Positions 1 through 7,317 of a stretch of 7,317 nucleotides of DNA are shown here, piece after piece. This stretch comes from Myxococcota bacterium (GTDB lineage Bacteria > Myxococcota_A > UBA9160 > PR03). The notes beneath the pieces were generated by a model. The model had not been told where the DNA came from. It did not search any database and worked only from the letters and a program-made list of their open reading frames with translations. Position 1 is the first letter of the stretch. Each line of letters opens with the position of its first letter. The stretch is from positions 1-7,317 of the forward strand of contig JASJBO010000363.1 in NCBI GenBank assembly GCA_030066475.1, written 5' to 3'. A program made the position numbers and the translations under genes.

Positions 1-131
1 GTGTCCTCGGCGTCCGGCATGAAGTGATCGGCGAGCCAGAAGCCATCCCAGCCCGTCGCCTCGACGTGTCGTGCGATCTCGAGCATCTCCTGGAAGGACT
101 GCGTGGGGTTGGGCCAGACACTGAATCGCAT
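1..131 (-). CDS. LLM-class (luciferase-like) flavin/F420-dependent oxidoreductase, N-terminal fragment
   Basis: This is the first 43 codons of a minus-strand gene whose remainder lies left of the window. The peptide opens MRFSVWPNPTQSF, continues through an 'EIARHVEATGWDGFWLADHFM' type segment and ends near PDAED. This is the beta1-alpha1-beta2 start of the bacterial luciferase-like TIM-barrel family, in which the 'ATGWDG-W-ADHFMP' signature is typical of F420- or FMN-dependent oxidoreductases. Family members transfer hydride or activate oxygen with a reduced flavin or deazaflavin; the substrate cannot be deduced from this fragment. The ATG at 131 is supported by a strong Shine-Dalgarno (GAGGAG, minus strand 143-138) six bases upstream. 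The gene is divergent from the selenoprotein gene. Family assignment is fairly secure; cofactor choice (F420 versus FMN) is open. Confidence 0.82.
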   Translation of the reverse strand, partial: MRFSVWPNPTQSFQEMLEIARHVEATGWDGFWLADHFMPDAED

Positions 132-278: not shown

Positions 279-1043
279 ATGATCTGGCTCTCGATCCTCC
301 TCGTGTCCGGCACCCTCGTGTCGATCGGCGTGAACCTCGCGTCGGAGTCGCCCGACCTTCGGCTCGGCGCGGGCCTGATCATCAGCGGGCGCGTTCCGTG
401 GATCCTGCTGCTGGCGCTCTGGGGCGGGGTCGCCCTGGGCGCGGCCTCGCTCTTCCGCGGCCGTGTGCTCCCCAAGCTCCCCGTGGTGCTCCTCGAGGTG
501 TTGCCGGTCGCCTACGTCACCTGGTACGTGCTCGTCGGCAGCGCGCTTCCGGCCCACGCTCTCCGGGTCGACGTGGGCGACCCGTTCCCCGCCTACGCGC
601 TCCAGGACCAGGACGGCGCGCTCCACCAGCTCGCGGTGCGCGAGAAGCGAGCGCCGGCGCTCTACATCTTCTACCGCGGCCACTGGTGACCGTTCTGTCG
701 GATCGAGCTGGCCCAGCTCGACAGCTACTACGATCGGATCTCGCAGAAGGGCGTCGCGCTCTTCGCGGTGAGCGTCGATCCGCCGGAGGCGTCGCGCCGA
801 TTGAAGCAGCGCCTCGAGAGCAACTTCACCTTCCTGGGCGATCCGGAGGGCGTCCTGCTCGACGGCCTCGGGATCCGGCACCAGGCCGGGCGCAACGACG
901 GGGGCGACATCGCGTACCCGACGGCCGTGCTCGTCGACGCGGACGGCGTCGTCCGCTGGATCTTCCAGTCCGACTCCTACGCGGATCGCGCCCGGGCCGA
1001 CGAGGTCTTCGCCGCGATCGCAGCGCTGCGAGAGGCGGGCTGA
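279..1043 (+). CDS. Membrane-anchored peroxiredoxin/thioredoxin-fold selenoprotein (UGA = selenocysteine 137)
   Basis: Read through the UGA at 687-689, this is one 254-residue protein. Residues 1-21, 39-58 and 67-90 are hydrophobic and look like three membrane helices; the basic loop RGRVLPK between the second and third suggests the C-terminal domain faces the periplasm. Residues about 97-254 are an AhpC/TSA-like redoxin domain: 'FYRGHW', Sec137-P-F-Cys140-R, then 'LFAVSVDPPEASRRL' and a likely cis-proline in 'AYPTAVLVD' (P214). Relatives carry YRGxWCPFCR here, so UGA replaces the first (peroxidatic) cysteine and gives a UxxC redox motif. A hairpin fitting a bacterial SECIS starts a few bases after the UGA. 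The expected role is thiol-dependent reduction of peroxides or disulfides; the substrate is unknown. A plain nonsense mutation is the alternative, but the downstream frame is intact over 117 codons and the first half alone would lack the catalytic motif. The gene is convergent with the Kunitz gene, 13 bp away. Confidence 0.85.
690..724 (+). promoter_or_regulatory. Putative bacterial SECIS (bSECIS) hairpin immediately 3' of the in-frame UGA
   Basis: Directly downstream of the UGA (687-689) the sequence folds as a perfect 8-bp stem, TCGAGCTG (703-710) with CAGCTCGA (714-721), closed by loop GCC (711-713). An alternative two-part fold pairs CTGTCG (695-700) with CGACAG (719-724) and AGCTG (706-710) with CAGCT (714-718), leaving 701-705 bulged. 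The loop begins 22 nt after the UGA and its first base is G; published bSECIS models ask for a small apical loop about 16-37 nt from the UGA with a G in its first two positions. In the bulged fold T703 is nucleotide 17 counting the U of UGA as 1, the position of the bulged U in E. coli fdhF. SelB recognition is inferred. Confidence 0.65.
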
Positions 1044-1060
1044 CGAGGGCTGCTCCTCAG
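1040..1060. terminator. Weak candidate hairpin between the convergent genes
   Basis: CTGACGAG (1040-1047) pairs with CTCCTCAG (1053-1060) with one C-C mismatch and a 5-nt loop. It spans both stop codons of the convergent selenoprotein and Kunitz genes. There is no T-tract on either strand, so this is at best a factor-assisted bidirectional terminator and may be fortuitous. Confidence 0.2.
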
Positions 1061-3456
1061 TCCCCTGGATTGCCCGTCGGAATGCAGGCCTGCTGGCACT
1101 GCTCCCGCGTGGTGAAGTTGTTCCCGTTGCCCCCGCAACCGCCGTAGACGAACGACTGGCAGGCCCCCGTGTTGGAGTCGAAGTACCAGCGCGGGATGTA
1201 GGCGTCGCAGGGCCCCGGGTCGGGAGCCAGACCGCAGGCGTCGGGAGGCGTCACGTCGCAGGCCTGCTCGCACGCTTCCCGCGTACGGAAGTTGTTGGCG
1301 TTGCCCTCGCAGCCGCCCCAGATGAAGCGCTCGCACTGGCCGGTCTGTGGATTGTGGCTCCAGCGCGGGAAGACTCCGTCGCAGGGGCCCGGGTCGCTCG
1401 GCAGGGTGCAGATGTCCACGCGGGCACCGCACGCGTCGCGGCACTCGGCCTGGGTCCGGAAGTTGTTCTCGTTGCCACCGCATCCCCCGTAGACGAAGCG
1501 CTCGCACTGGCCGCTCGCGGGGTCGTTGTACCAGCGCGGGATGTAGGCACGACAGGGACCGTTCTCGGCGGGCAGGGCGCAGACGTCCACATCGACGTCG
1601 CACGCCTGCTCGCATTCCCTGCGCGTGGCGTAGCGGTTCTCGTTGCCTGCGCAGCCGCCGTAGGTGAACTTCTCGCACTGCCCGGAGTCGGGGTCGTGGT
1701 ACCACTGCGCGATCGCAGCCCGACACGGGCCGGGATCCGCCGGCTGGGCACACTCGTCGATCTCGACGCCGCAGCGGCGCTCGCACTCCTCGCGCGTCGC
1801 GTAGTTGTTCTCGTTGCCGCCGCAGCCGCCCCAGACGAAGGACCTGCAGCTGCCGGTCCGGGGATCGTGGGCCCAGCGCGGAATCAGGGCCAGACAGGGG
1901 CCCTTGTCCGGCGGCAGCTCGCACTGGCCGGCCGAGTCGGGCCGACACGCTGCCTCGCAGGCCGCCTGCGTGGCGAAGTTGTTGTCGTTGCCGCCGCAGC
2001 CGCCGTAGATGAAGCGCTCGCAGCGCCCGTTCACCTCGTCGTAGTGCCAGCGCGGCAGGAAGGCCCGACAGGGGCCGGGGTCCGGCTGGAGCTCGCAGGC
2101 GTCGGGCGCCCCGCACGCCTTCTCGCAGTCGGCGAGTGTGGCGAAGTTGTTCCCGTTGCCGCCGCAGCCGCCCCAGTTGAAGCGCTCGCACCGGCCGCTC
2201 TCGGGGTTGCGACCCCAACGCGGGATGAGCGCGCGGCAGGGGCCGCGGTCGAGCGCCAGCTCGCAGACGTCTCGCGAACCCTCGGGCACGCACTGCGCGA
2301 TCGGCGGGCAGGGCTCGGTGATGCAGTAGACGTCCACCAGATCGCAGCGCTCCCCATCGGGACACTGCACGTCTGCGCAGGTGTCGGCACAGAACGCCAC
2401 CTCGCCTCCGCTGGCCGGCTGGTAGGTCTGACAGGTCTGGTTCTCTTCGCAGGACACGTTCGCGCAGGGATCGCCCGGATCGCCCGGCTGCGCGACACAG
2501 CGCGCGACCGGCGGGCACGGCTCCGTGACACAGGCGACCGGCTGGAGCTCGCAGACCTCGTTCGCGGGGCACTGGCGCCCCTGGCAGGTGTCCGCGCAGT
2601 AGGGAACGAGCTGGCCGTTCGCGTCGAACACCTTGCACTCCTGCCCCGAAGCGCATTGCTGAGTTGCACACGGGTCCTCGGGGTCGGTTGGCATCATGGT
2701 GCAGGCCGCGACGGGCGGGCACGGCTGGGTGAAGCAGGCGACCTGCCGAAGCTCGCAGACGGAGCCGGTCGGGCAGCTGAACCCCTGGCAGGTGTCCACG
2801 CAGATGCCGACGTCCTGTCCGTTGGGGCCCTCGAGCACCTGGCACTCCTGGTGCGGCTGGCAGACGATCCCGGAGCAGACGTCGGTGCTTCCGCACTCGA
2901 GCTCTCCGTCCTCGGAGACGCCGGTCATCGCCTCGCCCGCCGGGCAGAGCCTTCCGGCCAGCAGCGTCTCGCCGGGAGGGCCAGGCGGACCGGGCGGACC
3001 CTGGGGTCCGGGGCTGCCCGAGAGCGCGTTCAAGGAGAAGGGCGTGGCCCCCATCGCGCTGCGGGGCGAGAGGGTCTCGTAGTCGCCCTGGCTCGAAGTC
3101 ACGCGCATCTCGACCTGGAGCCAGCGCCGCTCGCCCGTCTCGAAGTCGGCGACCTCGAAGGGCAGCTCCACGGAGAGCACTCCGTCGATCACGTCCACGC
3201 GATCGAGGAAGATGGGCTTGCCCACCGGCTTGCCGTCGGTCTCCGCGTCCCAGAGCGTGAAGACGAAGTCGGCCGGCTCGTTCAGGAGCACGTCCTGGAA
3301 CTGCACGAGGGCCTGGTACGAGATCGCCGGATCCACGAGCGTGTCGTCCCCGACGGAGGGGGTGGCCGAGACGAGCGCGGCGACGACCAGGGAGACGGCG
3401 CGCAGGGCGCGCGGATGAACGGGCCGGGTAGGAGCGGATCGGGGAGGTCGAAGCAT
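1057..3456 (-). CDS. Secreted multi-domain protein: N-terminal beta domain, collagen-like stretch, three Cys-rich repeats, seven Kunitz/BPTI domains
   Basis: The 799-residue product begins with a signal peptide (basic region to R19, hydrophobic LVVAALVSA, likely cleavage near G36). Residues ~44-144 resemble the N-terminal domain common in bacterial collagen-like surface proteins ('ISYQ..', 'FTLWDA', '[16 protein letters not shown]'). Six Gly-X-Y triplets occupy 147-164, and a [18 protein letters not shown] linker follows. Three cysteine-rich repeats span ~194-396, each with 'CPPxAxC' near its end, and seven Kunitz domains span 398-791. Kunitz domains are canonical serine-protease inhibitors, so the inferred role is inhibition of proteases outside the cell, perhaps from predators, competitors or hosts; adhesion or matrix building is the alternative. 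I prefer the ATG at 3456 over the in-frame GTG at 3465 because the only Shine-Dalgarno (GGAG, 3468-3465) overlaps that GTG and is 8 nt from the ATG. The domain calls are secure; the biological target is unknown. Confidence 0.93.
1084..2265 (-). repeat. Array of seven Kunitz/BPTI-type domains
   Basis: Seven units of exactly 51 residues from first to last cysteine lie at 2113-2265, 1945-2097, 1771-1923, 1600-1752, 1429-1581, 1258-1410 and 1084-1236 (first to seventh in the protein), joined by linkers of 5-7 residues. Every unit has cysteines at relative positions 1, 10, 26, 34, 47 and 51, the same spacing as BPTI C5, C14, C30, C38, C51 and C55, so three disulfides per domain (1-6, 2-4, 3-5) are expected. 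The family hallmarks GPC, (F/W/Y)GGC and the GN-N-(N/R)(F/Y) segment recur in each. The residue after the second cysteine (P1) is R, R, L, R, R, D, D from first to last. Arg at P1 predicts trypsin-like protease inhibition and Leu predicts chymotrypsin/elastase-like; Asp is atypical. Target assignments are inference from family knowledge. Confidence 0.95.
2269..2877 (-). repeat. Three tandem cysteine-rich repeats of 66-69 residues
   Basis: The units begin at minus-strand positions 2877, 2670 and 2466 (69, 68 and about 66 residues). Each follows the pattern C-x4-C-x5-C, a variable stretch with one cysteine before a (V/A)D-T-C, then C-P-x4-C-(E/D)-L, a 'V-x-C-x-T-x-P-C-P-P-x-A-x-C' end and a proline/acidic linker. 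I recognise the 'PCPP..C' ending as typical of cysteine-rich secreted proteins of myxobacteria and relatives, but I cannot name a family with certainty. The regular even cysteine content suggests a disulfide-stabilised extracellular stalk between the N-terminal domain and the Kunitz array. Confidence 0.8.
2965..3018 (-). repeat. Short collagen-like Gly-X-Y stretch
   Basis: Six consecutive Gly-X-Y triplets ([18 protein letters not shown]) lie at residues 147-164 of the Kunitz protein, between the N-terminal domain and the cysteine-rich repeats. Three successive GPP triplets are the most stabilising collagen triplets. The run is short for an independent triple helix, so it may be a trimerisation nucleus or simply a flexible linker. 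Confidence 0.8.
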
Positions 3457-3464
3457 CGGGAGCA

Positions 3465-3468
3465 CTCC
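3465..3468 (-). promoter_or_regulatory. Ribosome binding site of the Kunitz-protein gene (decides the start)
   Basis: GGAG on the minus strand is separated by eight bases from the ATG at 3456. It includes the first base of the alternative GTG start at 3465, which therefore has no usable ribosome binding site. Confidence 0.55.
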
Positions 3469-3675: not shown

Positions 3676-5484
3676 ATGCGCAACTGGCTCGCCCTCGCGT
3701 GCGCACTCGTCGTGGTGGCGATCGTCGCCGCCTCCTTCCTGCGCGCGCCGGCGCCGGAGGAGCGCCCCCGCCGGGACACGCCGCGAGCCCGCCCGGACGC
3801 GCCGCCCAACGTCATCCTCTACGTGGTCGACACGCTGCGAGCGGATCACCTCGGGATCTACGGCTATTCGCGCGCCACCTCACCCGGGATCGACCGCTGG
3901 GCCGCCGAAGCGGTGGTGTTCGAACGAGCCTACGCGCCGTCGTCCTGGACGCGCCCGAGCATGGTGTCTCTCTTCAGCGGTCTCGACCCGATCCGCCACG
4001 GGGTCGAGGACCGGCTCGACGTGATTCCCGCCGACGTCGCCCTGCTGAGCGAGCGGCTCGCGGCGGGCGGCTATGCCACCTACGCGGCCGTCACCAACCC
4101 CCAGGTGCTGCCCACCTGGGGCTTCGGCCGGGGGTTCGACGCCTTCGAGGATCTGGACTCGGACACGCGCGGCACGCGCGCCGACGCCGTGTCCGACTGG
4201 GCGGTGGAGCGGATGGGCGAGCTGGCGGGTCGTGCGCCCTTCTTCCTGTACCTGCACCTGCTCGACCCGCATCTCCCCTACGCCCCCCCGGCGCCCTACG
4301 ACGAGCTCTTCCCCCGGACGCCCGCGCTCGCCCCGGACTGGTCCACCGGGCGCTACGACGGCGAGATCGCCTTCGTCGATCTGGAGTTCGGGCGGATCCT
4401 CGACGCGCTGCGACGGCACGGCCTCGAAGACGACACGCTGTTGATCCTCGTCGCCGACCACGGCGAAGAGCTGCTCGATCACGGACTCATCGGGCACGGA
4501 GCCAACCTCTTCGAAGAGGTCGTCCGCGTCCCGCTCATCGTCCGCTTCCCGGACGGCGCACACGCGGGCAGGCGCGTGGCCGCTCCGGTCTCGCTCATCG
4601 ACGTCGCCCCGACGGTTCTGGCGGTCGCCGGCCAGCCCCCCCTGCCGGGCGTCGAGGGTCGCGATCTGACGGCCCTGCTGGACGGCGACGCGGGCGACTG
4701 GACGGACCGCGAGCTCTTCCTGTCACTGCACCTGACGGGTAAGCCGAACCACCTGGTGCGAGGCGTGCTGAGCGGATCGAAGAAGTACCTGCGCCGCTCG
4801 CGGCCGGCGGCCTCGGAGACCCTGTTCGACCTCGATCGCGACCCCGGCGAGACGCACGACCTCGCCGCGAGCGAAGACGAGTCGCGCTCGTACTTCGAGG
4901 CCCTGCTGGACGCACACGTCGCGGTGCACTCGAGCGGGATCCATCTGAGGATCGTGAACGACCTCGCCCCTCGTCCCGTGGGCTGCGAGGTGGTGCTCCG
5001 CACGGAAGGGCGCTTCGTCGACGTCGCGCCGATCCGGCTCGAGCCGGACGACCGCCTCGAGCTGGGCGCCGGGGACCGAACGCTGCGCATGCGCTGCCAG
5101 CTCGAGAATCGGCCGGATCCGCGCTCCCACAGCACGGGGTTGCTCGCCGATGAAGACGGCTTCCTCTTCCGCGTCGCACCGCCCGAGGCGCCGGTCGTCG
5201 TGCGAGAGCTGCGCCTGTCGGACGACCGGGAGCTGCCGCTGGAGGTGGGCCCCCGTCGCGCGGTCCAAGCGTTGCCGTTCTCGTTCGTCGGCACGGACCC
5301 GGCCTGGTCCGTCCGCGATATCGGAGCCCTGCTGAGCGAGGCGGGCACCTACGCCAACGCCCCCGCGGTGACGGCGAACCTGGCCGTGGTCGCCGCACCG
5401 GACGAGCGCGACGACCTCTCCGCGGAGCTGCGCGATCGCCTGCGCGCGCTCGGCTACCTGGAGAGCGAGGCCGAGCAGGAGTAG
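3676..5484 (+). CDS. Membrane-anchored sulfatase-like hydrolase (alkaline phosphatase superfamily) with Thr at the nucleophile position
   Basis: The 602-residue protein starts with an N-terminal hydrophobic anchor or signal (residues 4-22) and an Arg/Pro-rich linker to about 44. The sulfatase domain follows: VVDTLRADHLG (metal-ligand D52), the nucleophile loop APSSWTRPSMVSLFSG (T92-R-P-S95), VADHGEE (D261-H262) and HG at H274-G275. Active sulfatases need Cys or Ser in C/S-x-P-S-R, matured to formylglycine. Here Thr occupies that place and Met replaces the Arg, so classical formylglycine sulfatase chemistry is unlikely; Thr is the nucleophile in phosphoethanolamine transferases of the same superfamily. 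The domain seems to end near 410. About 160 residues without a recognised family follow, and the protein ends with an 'LRDRLRALGYLE' tail common in this sulfatase subgroup. The active site should face the periplasm. Superfamily assignment is secure; substrate and reaction (sulfate ester, phosphodiester or transfer) are unknown. It is divergent from the Kunitz gene and co-directional with xsc. Confidence 0.88.
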   Translation: MRNWLALACALVVVAIVAASFLRAPAPEERPRRDTPRARPDAPPNVILYVVDTLRADHLGIYGYSRATSPGIDRWAAEAVVFERAYAPSSWTRPSMVSLFSGLDPIRHGVEDRLDVIPADVALLSERLAAGGYATYAAVTNPQVLPTWGFGRGFDAFEDLDSDTRGTRADAVSDWAVERMGELAGRAPFFLYLHLLDPHLPYAPPAPYDELFPRTPALAPDWSTGRYDGEIAFVDLEFGRILDALRRHGLEDDTLLILVADHGEELLDHGLIGHGANLFEEVVRVPLIVRFPDGAHAGRRVAAPVSLIDVAPTVLAVAGQPPLPGVEGRDLTALLDGDAGDWTDRELFLSLHLTGKPNHLVRGVLSGSKKYLRRSRPAASETLFDLDRDPGETHDLAASEDESRSYFEALLDAHVAVHSSGIHLRIVNDLAPRPVGCEVVLRTEGRFVDVAPIRLEPDDRLELGAGDRTLRMRCQLENRPDPRSHSTGLLADEDGFLFRVAPPEAPVVVRELRLSDDRELPLEVGPRRAVQALPFSFVGTDPAWSVRDIGALLSEAGTYANAPAVTANLAVVAAPDERDDLSAELRDRLRALGYLESEAEQE

Positions 5485-5617: not shown

Positions 5618-7317
5618 ATGAAGATGACCACCGAAGAGGCCTTCGTGAAGGTCCTGCAGGTCCACGGAATCCAGCATGCCTTCGGCATCATCGGGTCGGC
5701 CTTCATGCCGGTCTCGGACCTGTTCCCTCGGGCCGGAATCACCTTCTGGGACGTCGCGCACGAGACGAACGGCGGCTACGTCTGCGACGGCTTCACCCGG
5801 GCGAGCGGAAGGATGGGAATGGCCATCGCCCAGAACGGCCCCGGCGTCACCGGCTTCGTGACCGCCATGAAGACCGCCTACTGGAACCACACCCCGATGC
5901 TGCTGGTCACGCCGCAGGCGGCCAACAAGACGATCGGGCAGGGCGGCTTCCAGGAAGTCGAACAGATGGCGATGTTCCGCGAGATGGTCTGCTACCAGGA
6001 AGAGGTGCGGGATCCCTCGCGCATCGCGGAGGTGCTCAACCGCGTGATCCTCAAGGCCTGGCGCGGCTCGGCACCGGCGCAGATCAACGTGCCGCGGGAT
6101 CTCTGGACGCAGGTGGTGGACGTCGAGCTGCCGCAGGTCGTCCACTTCGAGCGCCCGCCCGGCGGACGTCGGGCGATCGCGGAGGCCGCCGCGCTGCTGT
6201 CCGAGGCGAAGTTCCCGGTGATCCTCAACGGCGCCGGGGTCGTCCTCGGGGATGCGATTCCGGCGTCGCAGGCGCTGGCCGAGCGCCTCTGCGCGCCGGT
6301 CTGCTGCAACTACCAGCACAACGACGCCTTCCCGGGCAGCCACCCGCTCGCGTGCGGGCCGCTCGGCTACAACGGCTCGAAGGCGGCGATGGAGCTGGTC
6401 GCGCGGGCAGACGTGGTGCTGGCGCTCGGCACCCGCCTCAATCCCTTCTCGACCCTGCCCTGCTACGACATCGACTACTGGCCGCGCGACGCGAAGATCA
6501 TCCAGGTCGACGTCAACGCCGACCGCATCGGGCTGACCAAGCGCGTGGCCGTCGGGATCGAGGGCGATGCCAGGCAGGTGGCGGAGCAGCTGCTGGCGCA
6601 GCTCGCGCCGACCGCCGGAGACGCGGGCCGCCGGGAACGCGAGGAGCTGGTGGCCCGGACGAAGGCGCAGTGGCGGCAGACGCTCTGGGAGATGGACCAC
6701 GAGGAGGACGATCCGGGAACCAGCTGGAACGAGCGCGCGCGCCAGCGCGATCCCGATCGCATGTCCGCGCGACAGGCCTGGCGGGCGATCCACGCCGCGC
6801 TTCCGAGCGACGCGATCATCTCCTCCGACATCGGCAACAACTGCGCGATCGGCAACGCGTATCCGAGCTTCGAGACCGGACGCAAGTACCTGGCTCCCGG
6901 CCTGTTCGGTCCCTGCGGCTACGGCTTCCCCTCGATCGTGGGCGCCAAGATCGGCTGCCCGGACGTGCCGGTGGTGGGCTTCGCGGGTGACGGAGCGTTC
7001 GGGATCTCGATGAACGAGATGAGCTCGATCGGCCGCGCCCCCTGGCCGGCGATCACGATGGTGGTCTTCCGGAACTACCAGTGGGGCGCCGAGAAGCGGA
7101 ACACGACGCTCTGGTTCGACGACAACTTCGTCGGGACGGAGCTCGACCCGAACGTGAGCTTCGCGCGCATCGCGGAGGCCTGCGGTCACAAGGGCGTCAC
7201 GGTCACGACGCCGGCGGAGACGACCCAGGCGCTCGAGATCGCGTGCAAGGAGCAGTCCAACGGCGTGACGACCTTCATCGAGGTGATCCTCAACCAGGAG
7301 CTCGGCGAGCCGTTCCG
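5618..7317 (+). CDS. xsc: Sulfoacetaldehyde acetyltransferase (ThDP-dependent), C-terminus cut by window edge
   Basis: Xsc cleaves sulfoacetaldehyde with phosphate to acetyl phosphate and sulfite, the desulfonating step of taurine and related C2-sulfonate degradation in the cytoplasm. The N-terminus MKMTTEEAFVKVLQ and blocks such as NGPGVTGFVTAMKTAYWNHT, TIGQGGFQEVEQMAMF and NYQHNDAFPGSH match Xsc rather than acetolactate synthase. Domain order is that of ThDP enzymes: an N-terminal PYR domain with catalytic Glu49 (AHETNGG), a central domain of about 190-340 and a C-terminal PP domain with the ThDP/Mg motif G457-D458-G459 to N486. The 566 visible residues end at 'ELGEPF', so probably only some 20-30 residues are missing. 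In many bacteria a phosphotransacetylase gene (pta) follows and turns acetyl phosphate into acetyl-CoA; that region is outside the window. The AGGAGG Shine-Dalgarno fixes the start. The upstream sulfatase-like gene hints at organosulfur use, but no direct link is shown. Confidence 0.93.
   Translation, partial: MKMTTEEAFVKVLQVHGIQHAFGIIGSAFMPVSDLFPRAGITFWDVAHETNGGYVCDGFTRASGRMGMAIAQNGPGVTGFVTAMKTAYWNHTPMLLVTPQAANKTIGQGGFQEVEQMAMFREMVCYQEEVRDPSRIAEVLNRVILKAWRGSAPAQINVPRDLWTQVVDVELPQVVHFERPPGGRRAIAEAAALLSEAKFPVILNGAGVVLGDAIPASQALAERLCAPVCCNYQHNDAFPGSHPLACGPLGYNGSKAAMELVARADVVLALGTRLNPFSTLPCYDIDYWPRDAKIIQVDVNADRIGLTKRVAVGIEGDARQVAEQLLAQLAPTAGDAGRREREELVARTKAQWRQTLWEMDHEEDDPGTSWNERARQRDPDRMSARQAWRAIHAALPSDAIISSDIGNNCAIGNAYPSFETGRKYLAPGLFGPCGYGFPSIVGAKIGCPDVPVVGFAGDGAFGISMNEMSSIGRAPWPAITMVVFRNYQWGAEKRNTTLWFDDNFVGTELDPNVSFARIAEACGHKGVTVTTPAETTQALEIACKEQSNGVTTFIEVILNQELGEPF

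Follow-up and report, generated by a model that had tools for sequence, protein, structure and literature searches.

Descriptions of AhpC/TSA-fold selenoproteins that carry selenocysteine (Sec, U) in a UxxC motif go back to the Sargasso Sea survey (available parts of PMC1088965, PMC2398784, PMC9312934 and PMC13188914). Peroxiredoxin-like (Prx-like) thiol:disulfide oxidoreductase selenoproteins (PF00578, UxxC or UxxU) are listed in the available parts of PMC13188914 and PMC9312934, and table entries excerpted from this literature name a Peroxiredoxin-like family protein (cd02970, UxxS) and a Redoxin family protein (PF08534, UxxC). Here, we analyse a stretch of 7317 nucleotides from a Myxococcota bacterium (contig JASJBO010000363.1, hereafter the window), in which a redoxin reading frame at 279-1043 is interrupted by an in-frame UGA at 687-689. 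We find by computation that this UGA is conserved, pairs with Cys in homologues and precedes a compensated hairpin, and that relatives encode the machinery of Sec decoding. As judged from sequence, the UGA is very probably read as Sec in one full-length protein.

The window protein shares the AhpC/TSA fold, a predicted Sec in the first place of UxxC and a candidate bacterial Sec insertion sequence (SECIS) with the Prx-like PF00578 selenoproteins, as far as the excerpted entries describe them, and it differs by its motif, GHWUPFCRIEL, and by a predicted three-helix anchor, a feature compared on the window side only. With the excerpted cd02970 and PF08534 entries it has the redoxin fold and the leading Sec in common; it passes the PF08534 cut-off, and its UxxC stands against the UxxS of cd02970. 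The best NCBIfam match is the SelL-related redox protein NF040769 (residues 102-199), at 49.4 bits and thus below the cut-off of 120. Like ResA, TlpA and DsbE, which are CxxC-type redoxins, it has a Pro at a cis-Pro-like place. These three are membrane-anchored, ResA and TlpA by one transmembrane (TM) helix, whereas the window protein has three predicted TM helices and a predicted Sec, and passes no NCBIfam cut-off. Hence, Sec in such proteins was known, and the window protein is a new representative of the UxxC AhpC/TSA-fold group that is predicted to be membrane-anchored. A search for papers on selenoproteins or selenocysteine in Myxococcota or myxobacteria, which left most subscription papers and preprints outside, returned none that was relevant. 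Reviews, in their accessible portions, name Deltaproteobacteria/Thermodesulfobacteriota, Clostridia and Synergistota as rich in selenoproteins. Myxococcota may have been counted among the 'Deltaproteobacteria' of earlier usage.

A conserved in-frame UGA at the redox site

Translation of 279-1040 with TGA as U gives 254 residues, with the UGA as residue 137 in YIFYRGHW-U-PFCRIELAQL, so that the UxxC motif is present as UPFC; its second redox residue, Cys140, is encoded at 696-698. The read-through product matches PF00578 (AhpC-TSA, 77.6 bits, cut-off 26) over residues 99-227 and PF08534 (Redoxin, 68.2 bits, cut-off 26.6) over residues 99-242. Both matches extend across residue 137, therefore a single domain spans the UGA. 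A preliminary description of this DNA, made from its letters, had placed the UGA at the first Cys of W-C-P-F-C and let the frame run 117 codons further to the stop at 1041-1043. Alignment of the read-through product with Cys homologues bears out the former, residue 137 facing Cys in every one that was aligned, and the translation bears out the latter, since the 117 codons encode redoxin sequence. The same description expected automated annotation to report two truncated open reading frames (ORFs), and standard-code gene calling yields exactly these, at 279-689 (136 aa) and 768-1043 (91 aa).

An initial genome scan gave six loci, two of them distant. The other four lie in close relatives, metagenome-assembled genomes labelled Myxococcota bacterium or delta proteobacterium, whose proteins are 71-77% identical to the window protein by full alignment; all four have TGA at the site. 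In the order to which the first of these genomes (G001) belongs, matches at E ≤ 0.001 occur in 77 of 79 genomes, and 12 hold an orthologue (E ≤ 1e-85), with the TGA inside it in every case. A phylum-wide sample of 377 genomes has matches at E ≤ 1e-30 in 13, each with one internal TGA; the thirteenth is G202, and the match in G022 additionally overruns a TAG that is the terminal stop of its orthologue. The window, the 12 genomes of the order and G202 make up a set of 14 orthologues. TGA occupies one alignment column in all 14, and neither TAA nor TAG is found there. The gene itself ends with TGA in eight of the 14 and with TAG in the other six.

The proportions of non-synonymous and synonymous differences (pN/pS; means over the 91 pairs of the 14 orthologues) are 0.341/0.551 for the part that precedes the UGA and 0.226/0.525 for the part that follows. 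The low pN/pS downstream indicates that this part is translated and selected. The looser stretch before the UGA contains the membrane anchor. Decay after a nonsense mutation, one of two outcomes that, according to the preliminary description, would undo its proposal, is not seen: relatives keep the UGA, and the sequence after it is conserved.

Homologous proteins place the site in a family with Cys. Among the matches listed from 7995 scored candidates there are 65 such proteins; 33 have WCPxC and 29 terminate precisely at the Trp preceding the site. The remaining three are two downstream halves (P0041, P0051) and one protein that departs from the frame before the site (P0044). Thirteen Cys homologues (P0024, P0026-P0034, P0036, P0037 and P0039) are 41-47% identical to the window protein and share its redoxin domain, a hydrophobic N-terminus (by eye) and WCPFC at the matching place, differing by Cys where the window protein has the predicted Sec. 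A quick tree of 73 rows (44 Sec rows, with L064 left out, and 29 of the 33 Cys rows), which has long branches and weak deep forks, joins the window and the 13 other orthologues in one Sec clade (Shimodaira-Hasegawa-like approximate likelihood ratio test 97) adjoining a 13-row Cys clade. This tree requires at least six changes between Sec and Cys, or two if the starred branches alone are counted. The conserved UGA, its pairing with Cys and the constraint downstream all support Sec in place of the first active-site Cys, as initially proposed.

The downstream hairpin and the decoding machinery

The published model of the bacterial SECIS, in the available part of PMC13188914, has a stem of 4-16 bp, a loop of 3-9 nt with G in its first two positions, 16-37 nt from UGA to loop and a minimum free energy of -7.5 or lower. 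The candidate hairpin of the window fits the published geometry, with 8 bp, a loop of 3 nt that starts with G and a spacing of 21 nt; 13 bases separate the UGA from the stem, and the 48-nt piece folds at -14.6. A stem of 7-8 bp stands at the matching place in all 14 orthologues, 12 of which have a G-U-x loop (G-C-C in the window and in L027).

Paralogous UGA redoxins, with TQLGELR in place of IELVQLE, build the identical stem geometry from different bases. We counted pairs in 24 sequences (set A5: all 14 orthologues and 10 of the 13 UGA loci of set C, without L061, L062 and L064) and found pairing in 97.4% of cells, changes on both sides in 40 and a covariation score of 0.503, the paired percentage being biased upward because the sequences were picked for matching stem geometry. 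None of 500 shuffles and no slid control reached any of these three values, and the slid controls were 28-35% paired. A third subfamily has another hairpin, with an AGUUG or AGUUA loop. It is 100% paired in 15 sequences that were picked, with the same upward bias, for their geometry (set A6: 15 of the 18 loci of set B, without L038, L039 and L041), and two of its pairs are changed on both sides, which one of 500 shuffles reaches. Codons in the hairpin are identical at all four amino-acid-invariant columns, against a mean codon identity of 0.61 at the 51 other such columns. Five other UGA loci have a weak hairpin or none by the stem rule: 5 bp in L038 and L041, 6 bp in L039 and L061, and 2 bp in L062. 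In L061 and L062, the UGA redoxins have the site WUPFCRRLLAGYE. We consider compensation across subfamilies to be stronger evidence for a SECIS, as far as sequence can tell, than the mere presence of a hairpin.

The four genomes closest to the window all encode a tRNA-Sec over the cut-off, with anticodon TCA, and SelD; three of them have SelA and three have SelB over the cut-off. The second outcome that the preliminary description had set against its proposal, a lack of selA, selB, selC and selD, is thus not what these relatives show. At one locus (L022, G001:C114:4918-5841), the selD match holds one in-frame TGA, and its product is probably itself a Sec-containing SelD. At E ≤ 1e-9, tRNA-Sec is found in 63 of the 79 genomes of the order, a level at which 3 of 14 control genomes also match, and in 12 of the 13 orthologue genomes (11 of 12 in the order, plus G202). 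The phylum sample, which includes members of the order, has it in 215 of 377 genomes, and Sec decoding looks common across the phylum. The co-occurrence of UGA redoxins and tRNA-Sec in the order is loose. At least four genomes (G011, G014, G018 and G022) have TGA-bearing matches without a tRNA-Sec at this threshold; the site was actually read in G018 and G022 only. The missing tRNAs are perhaps due to incomplete genomes. On the window itself, ARAGORN finds no tRNA and Rfam gives two matches only, both below gathering scores. The sulfoacetaldehyde acetyltransferase (Xsc) encoded in the window is 84-87% identical to the Xsc of 16 of the 79 genomes, four of which (G047, G048, G050 and G051) also have the orthologue. 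Hence, the window probably belongs to this order.

Arguments against Sec insertion and alternative readings

Several observations weigh against Sec insertion at this codon. The machinery was counted in the genomes of relatives, that of the window organism excepted. One of the four closest genomes (G002) has no SelA match and a SelB under the cut-off, G022 has no tRNA-Sec at E ≤ 1e-9 despite its UGA orthologue, and Xsc has no match at E ≤ 1e-100 in the four genomes closest by their redoxin (G001-G004). The GCC loop of the window is atypical, since in the published model the leading G mostly precedes a second G or a U (PMC13188914, available part). The hairpin is also not rare. Its energy lies within 1.6 standard deviations of shuffled sequences in all five loci (z -0.8 to -1.5), a fold as good as that of the window arises in 29 of 200 shuffles, and among codons at a distance of over 20 codons from the UGA, 6.3% have an 8-bp hairpin by the same rule. 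Random synonymous recoding gives an equally long stem in 25% of trials and an equally low energy in 15%. Given these frequencies, we rejected the rarity of the hairpin as stand-alone proof. Five of the eight pairs are changed on both sides in the 24 sequences, a number that 43 of 500 shuffles reach. Compensation lies mostly between two subfamilies, which is perhaps one ancestral difference counted repeatedly. A single codon is also used at 6 of the 51 invariant columns outside the hairpin, and the weaker constraint before the UGA may reflect only the membrane anchor.

Other readings of the codon have to account for the same observations. A nonsense mutation, be it in a pseudogene or from an assembly error, would produce the two fragments of standard gene calling and the 29 truncated homologues among the matches listed from the protein collection. 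We give it virtually no credence, and reject both pseudogene and sequencing error, because the TGA recurs in 14 orthologues of separate genomes, with no other stop in its column, and is followed by constrained sequence. The same constraint makes it extremely unlikely that the functional protein is the 136-aa product ending at the UGA, with read-through being incidental; this product would hold all three TM helices, but it lacks the active site. The clearly coding read-through product would equally be expected if the UGA were read as another amino acid, be it by reassignment of the code or because near-cognate decoding inserts Trp or Cys. Reassignment is rejected because TGA serves as the terminal stop in the eight orthologues mentioned above, and the reading as a whole is very unlikely given the tRNA-Sec of relatives, the Cys of homologues in this column and the compensated hairpin downstream.

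A further alternative leaves Sec insertion untouched and concerns the chemistry: the protein may be a true peroxidase, with Cys140 or Sec137 directly reducing peroxides. We regard this as possible, if rather doubtful. The redoxin domain has PDB matches to Bcp4 (3hjp) and AhpE (1xxu). Typical peroxiredoxins are defined by Pxxx(T/S)xxC and a catalytic Arg. Neither is found in the window protein. In the alignment to AhpE, R133 stands where AhpE has the P of this pattern, U137 at Thr42, C140 at the peroxidatic Cys45 and P214 at Arg116. The first description of the protein as a membrane peroxiredoxin-like protein thus holds for its AhpC/TSA fold and fails for the residues that define typical peroxiredoxins, replaced here by R133, U137 and P214. 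The sequence also matches ResA, DsbE and TlpA. Thiol-disulfide oxidoreductases of the ResA/TlpA type are defined by a redox CxxC and a cis-Pro, on the extracytoplasmic side. The window protein has the redox motif and a Pro at a cis-Pro-like place, is predicted to face that side, and stays below the NCBIfam cut-offs. Since the peroxiredoxin residues are replaced, a role as a thiol-disulfide oxidoreductase fits better, and we lean towards it over a peroxidase.

Taking the UGA as a Sec codon, we infer a course of events that includes insertion, topology, chemistry and partner. The hairpin just 3' of the UGA would recruit SelB carrying Sec-tRNA-Sec, and the codon would be decoded as Sec137. The product would have three N-terminal TM helices (predicted at about residues 2-21, 41-59 and 64-85) and a redoxin domain that is probably extracytoplasmic by its predicted orientation, at the outer face of the inner membrane. 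A helix would start with a U-P-F-C redox pair made of Sec137 and Cys140, with Sec137 most likely the attacking nucleophile that forms a selenenylsulfide with Cys140. A membrane or periplasmic thiol donor would reduce this selenenylsulfide. The protein would then act as a thiol-disulfide oxidoreductase, and peroxidase activity would be secondary at most.

Gene surroundings and UGA redoxins of the order

Table 1. Features of the window, with coordinates on its forward strand.
Feature	Coordinates	Strand	Details
Selenoprotein reading frame (predicted)	279..1043	+	254 aa, Sec at residue 137; terminal stop TGA 1041-1043
N-terminal membrane anchor (predicted)	279..545	+	residues 1-89; hydropathy, charge, AlphaFold2 helices
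AhpC/TSA (redoxin) domain	573..1040	+	residues 99-254; Pfam, AlphaFold2 (mean predicted local distance difference test score, pLDDT, 87.3)
In-frame UGA, predicted Sec137	687..689	+	first position of UPFC site; 14/14 orthologues, Cys in homologues
Candidate bacterial SECIS (bSECIS) hairpin	703..721	+	8-bp stem 703-710 / 714-721, loop GCC 711-713; 21 nt UGA-to-loop
Start of luciferase-like monooxygenase gene, leaving the window	1..131	-	PF00296, 25.4 bits, just below cut-off 27.9
ORF with Kunitz/BPTI domains	1057..3465	-	802 aa; seven Kunitz/BPTI domain matches, collagen-like stretch
Sulfatase-family gene	3676..5484		precedes xsc
xsc, sulfoacetaldehyde acetyltransferase	5621..7315	+	TIGR03457, 916 bits

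For the other genes of the window, tblastn gives no match at E ≤ 1e-5 within the loci of the four close relatives (L001-L004). Ten ORFs chosen near the gene in those loci match the RNB exoribonuclease, amidohydrolase, multihaem-cytochrome/PKD, penicillin amidase, acyl-CoA dehydrogenase, TetR, thiolase, HXXEE and P450 families, and one has no match. We therefore propose no operon partner. A protein combining Kunitz/BPTI domains with a collagen-like stretch is, to our knowledge, unusual for a bacterium. The position of xsc after a sulfatase-family gene suggests, by gene content, that the window organism uses sulfonates or sulfate esters.

Many redoxin paralogues in the order carry UGA at the active site. 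In the 30 loci listed for the order, best per genome (12 orthologues and 18 paralogues), UGA always stands right behind the Trp of W-x-P-[FY]-C, as its x. We chose 20 further places: all 13 marked by a TGA have UGA at the position of the active-site Cys, 12 of them as WUPxC or WUPxT, and all seven that are free of stops have Cys. The thirteenth, a PrxQ-like protein of the same order (L064), has UGA at the peroxidatic position (TPGU). Another redoxin subfamily, with a site that lacks the second Cys, exchanges Sec (WUPFT in L068) and Cys (WCPPT/WCPFT in L072 and L074).

These patterns may reflect a redoxin-centred selenoproteome in a little-known order of Myxococcota, a proposal to which we give even chances. 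It would comprise several AhpC/TSA-fold subfamilies, some of them membrane-anchored, with repeated switches between Cys and Sec and a compensated SECIS of their own in each; thiol chemistry in the envelope would be largely run on selenium, and the genes would be recorded as truncated. Gene calling cuts this family at the active site, as in the listed homologues that stop at the Trp before Sec (29 of 65). The finding suggests that selenium is widely used in Myxococcota, and the subfamilies offer natural replicates for the evolution of SECIS hairpins within coding sequence.
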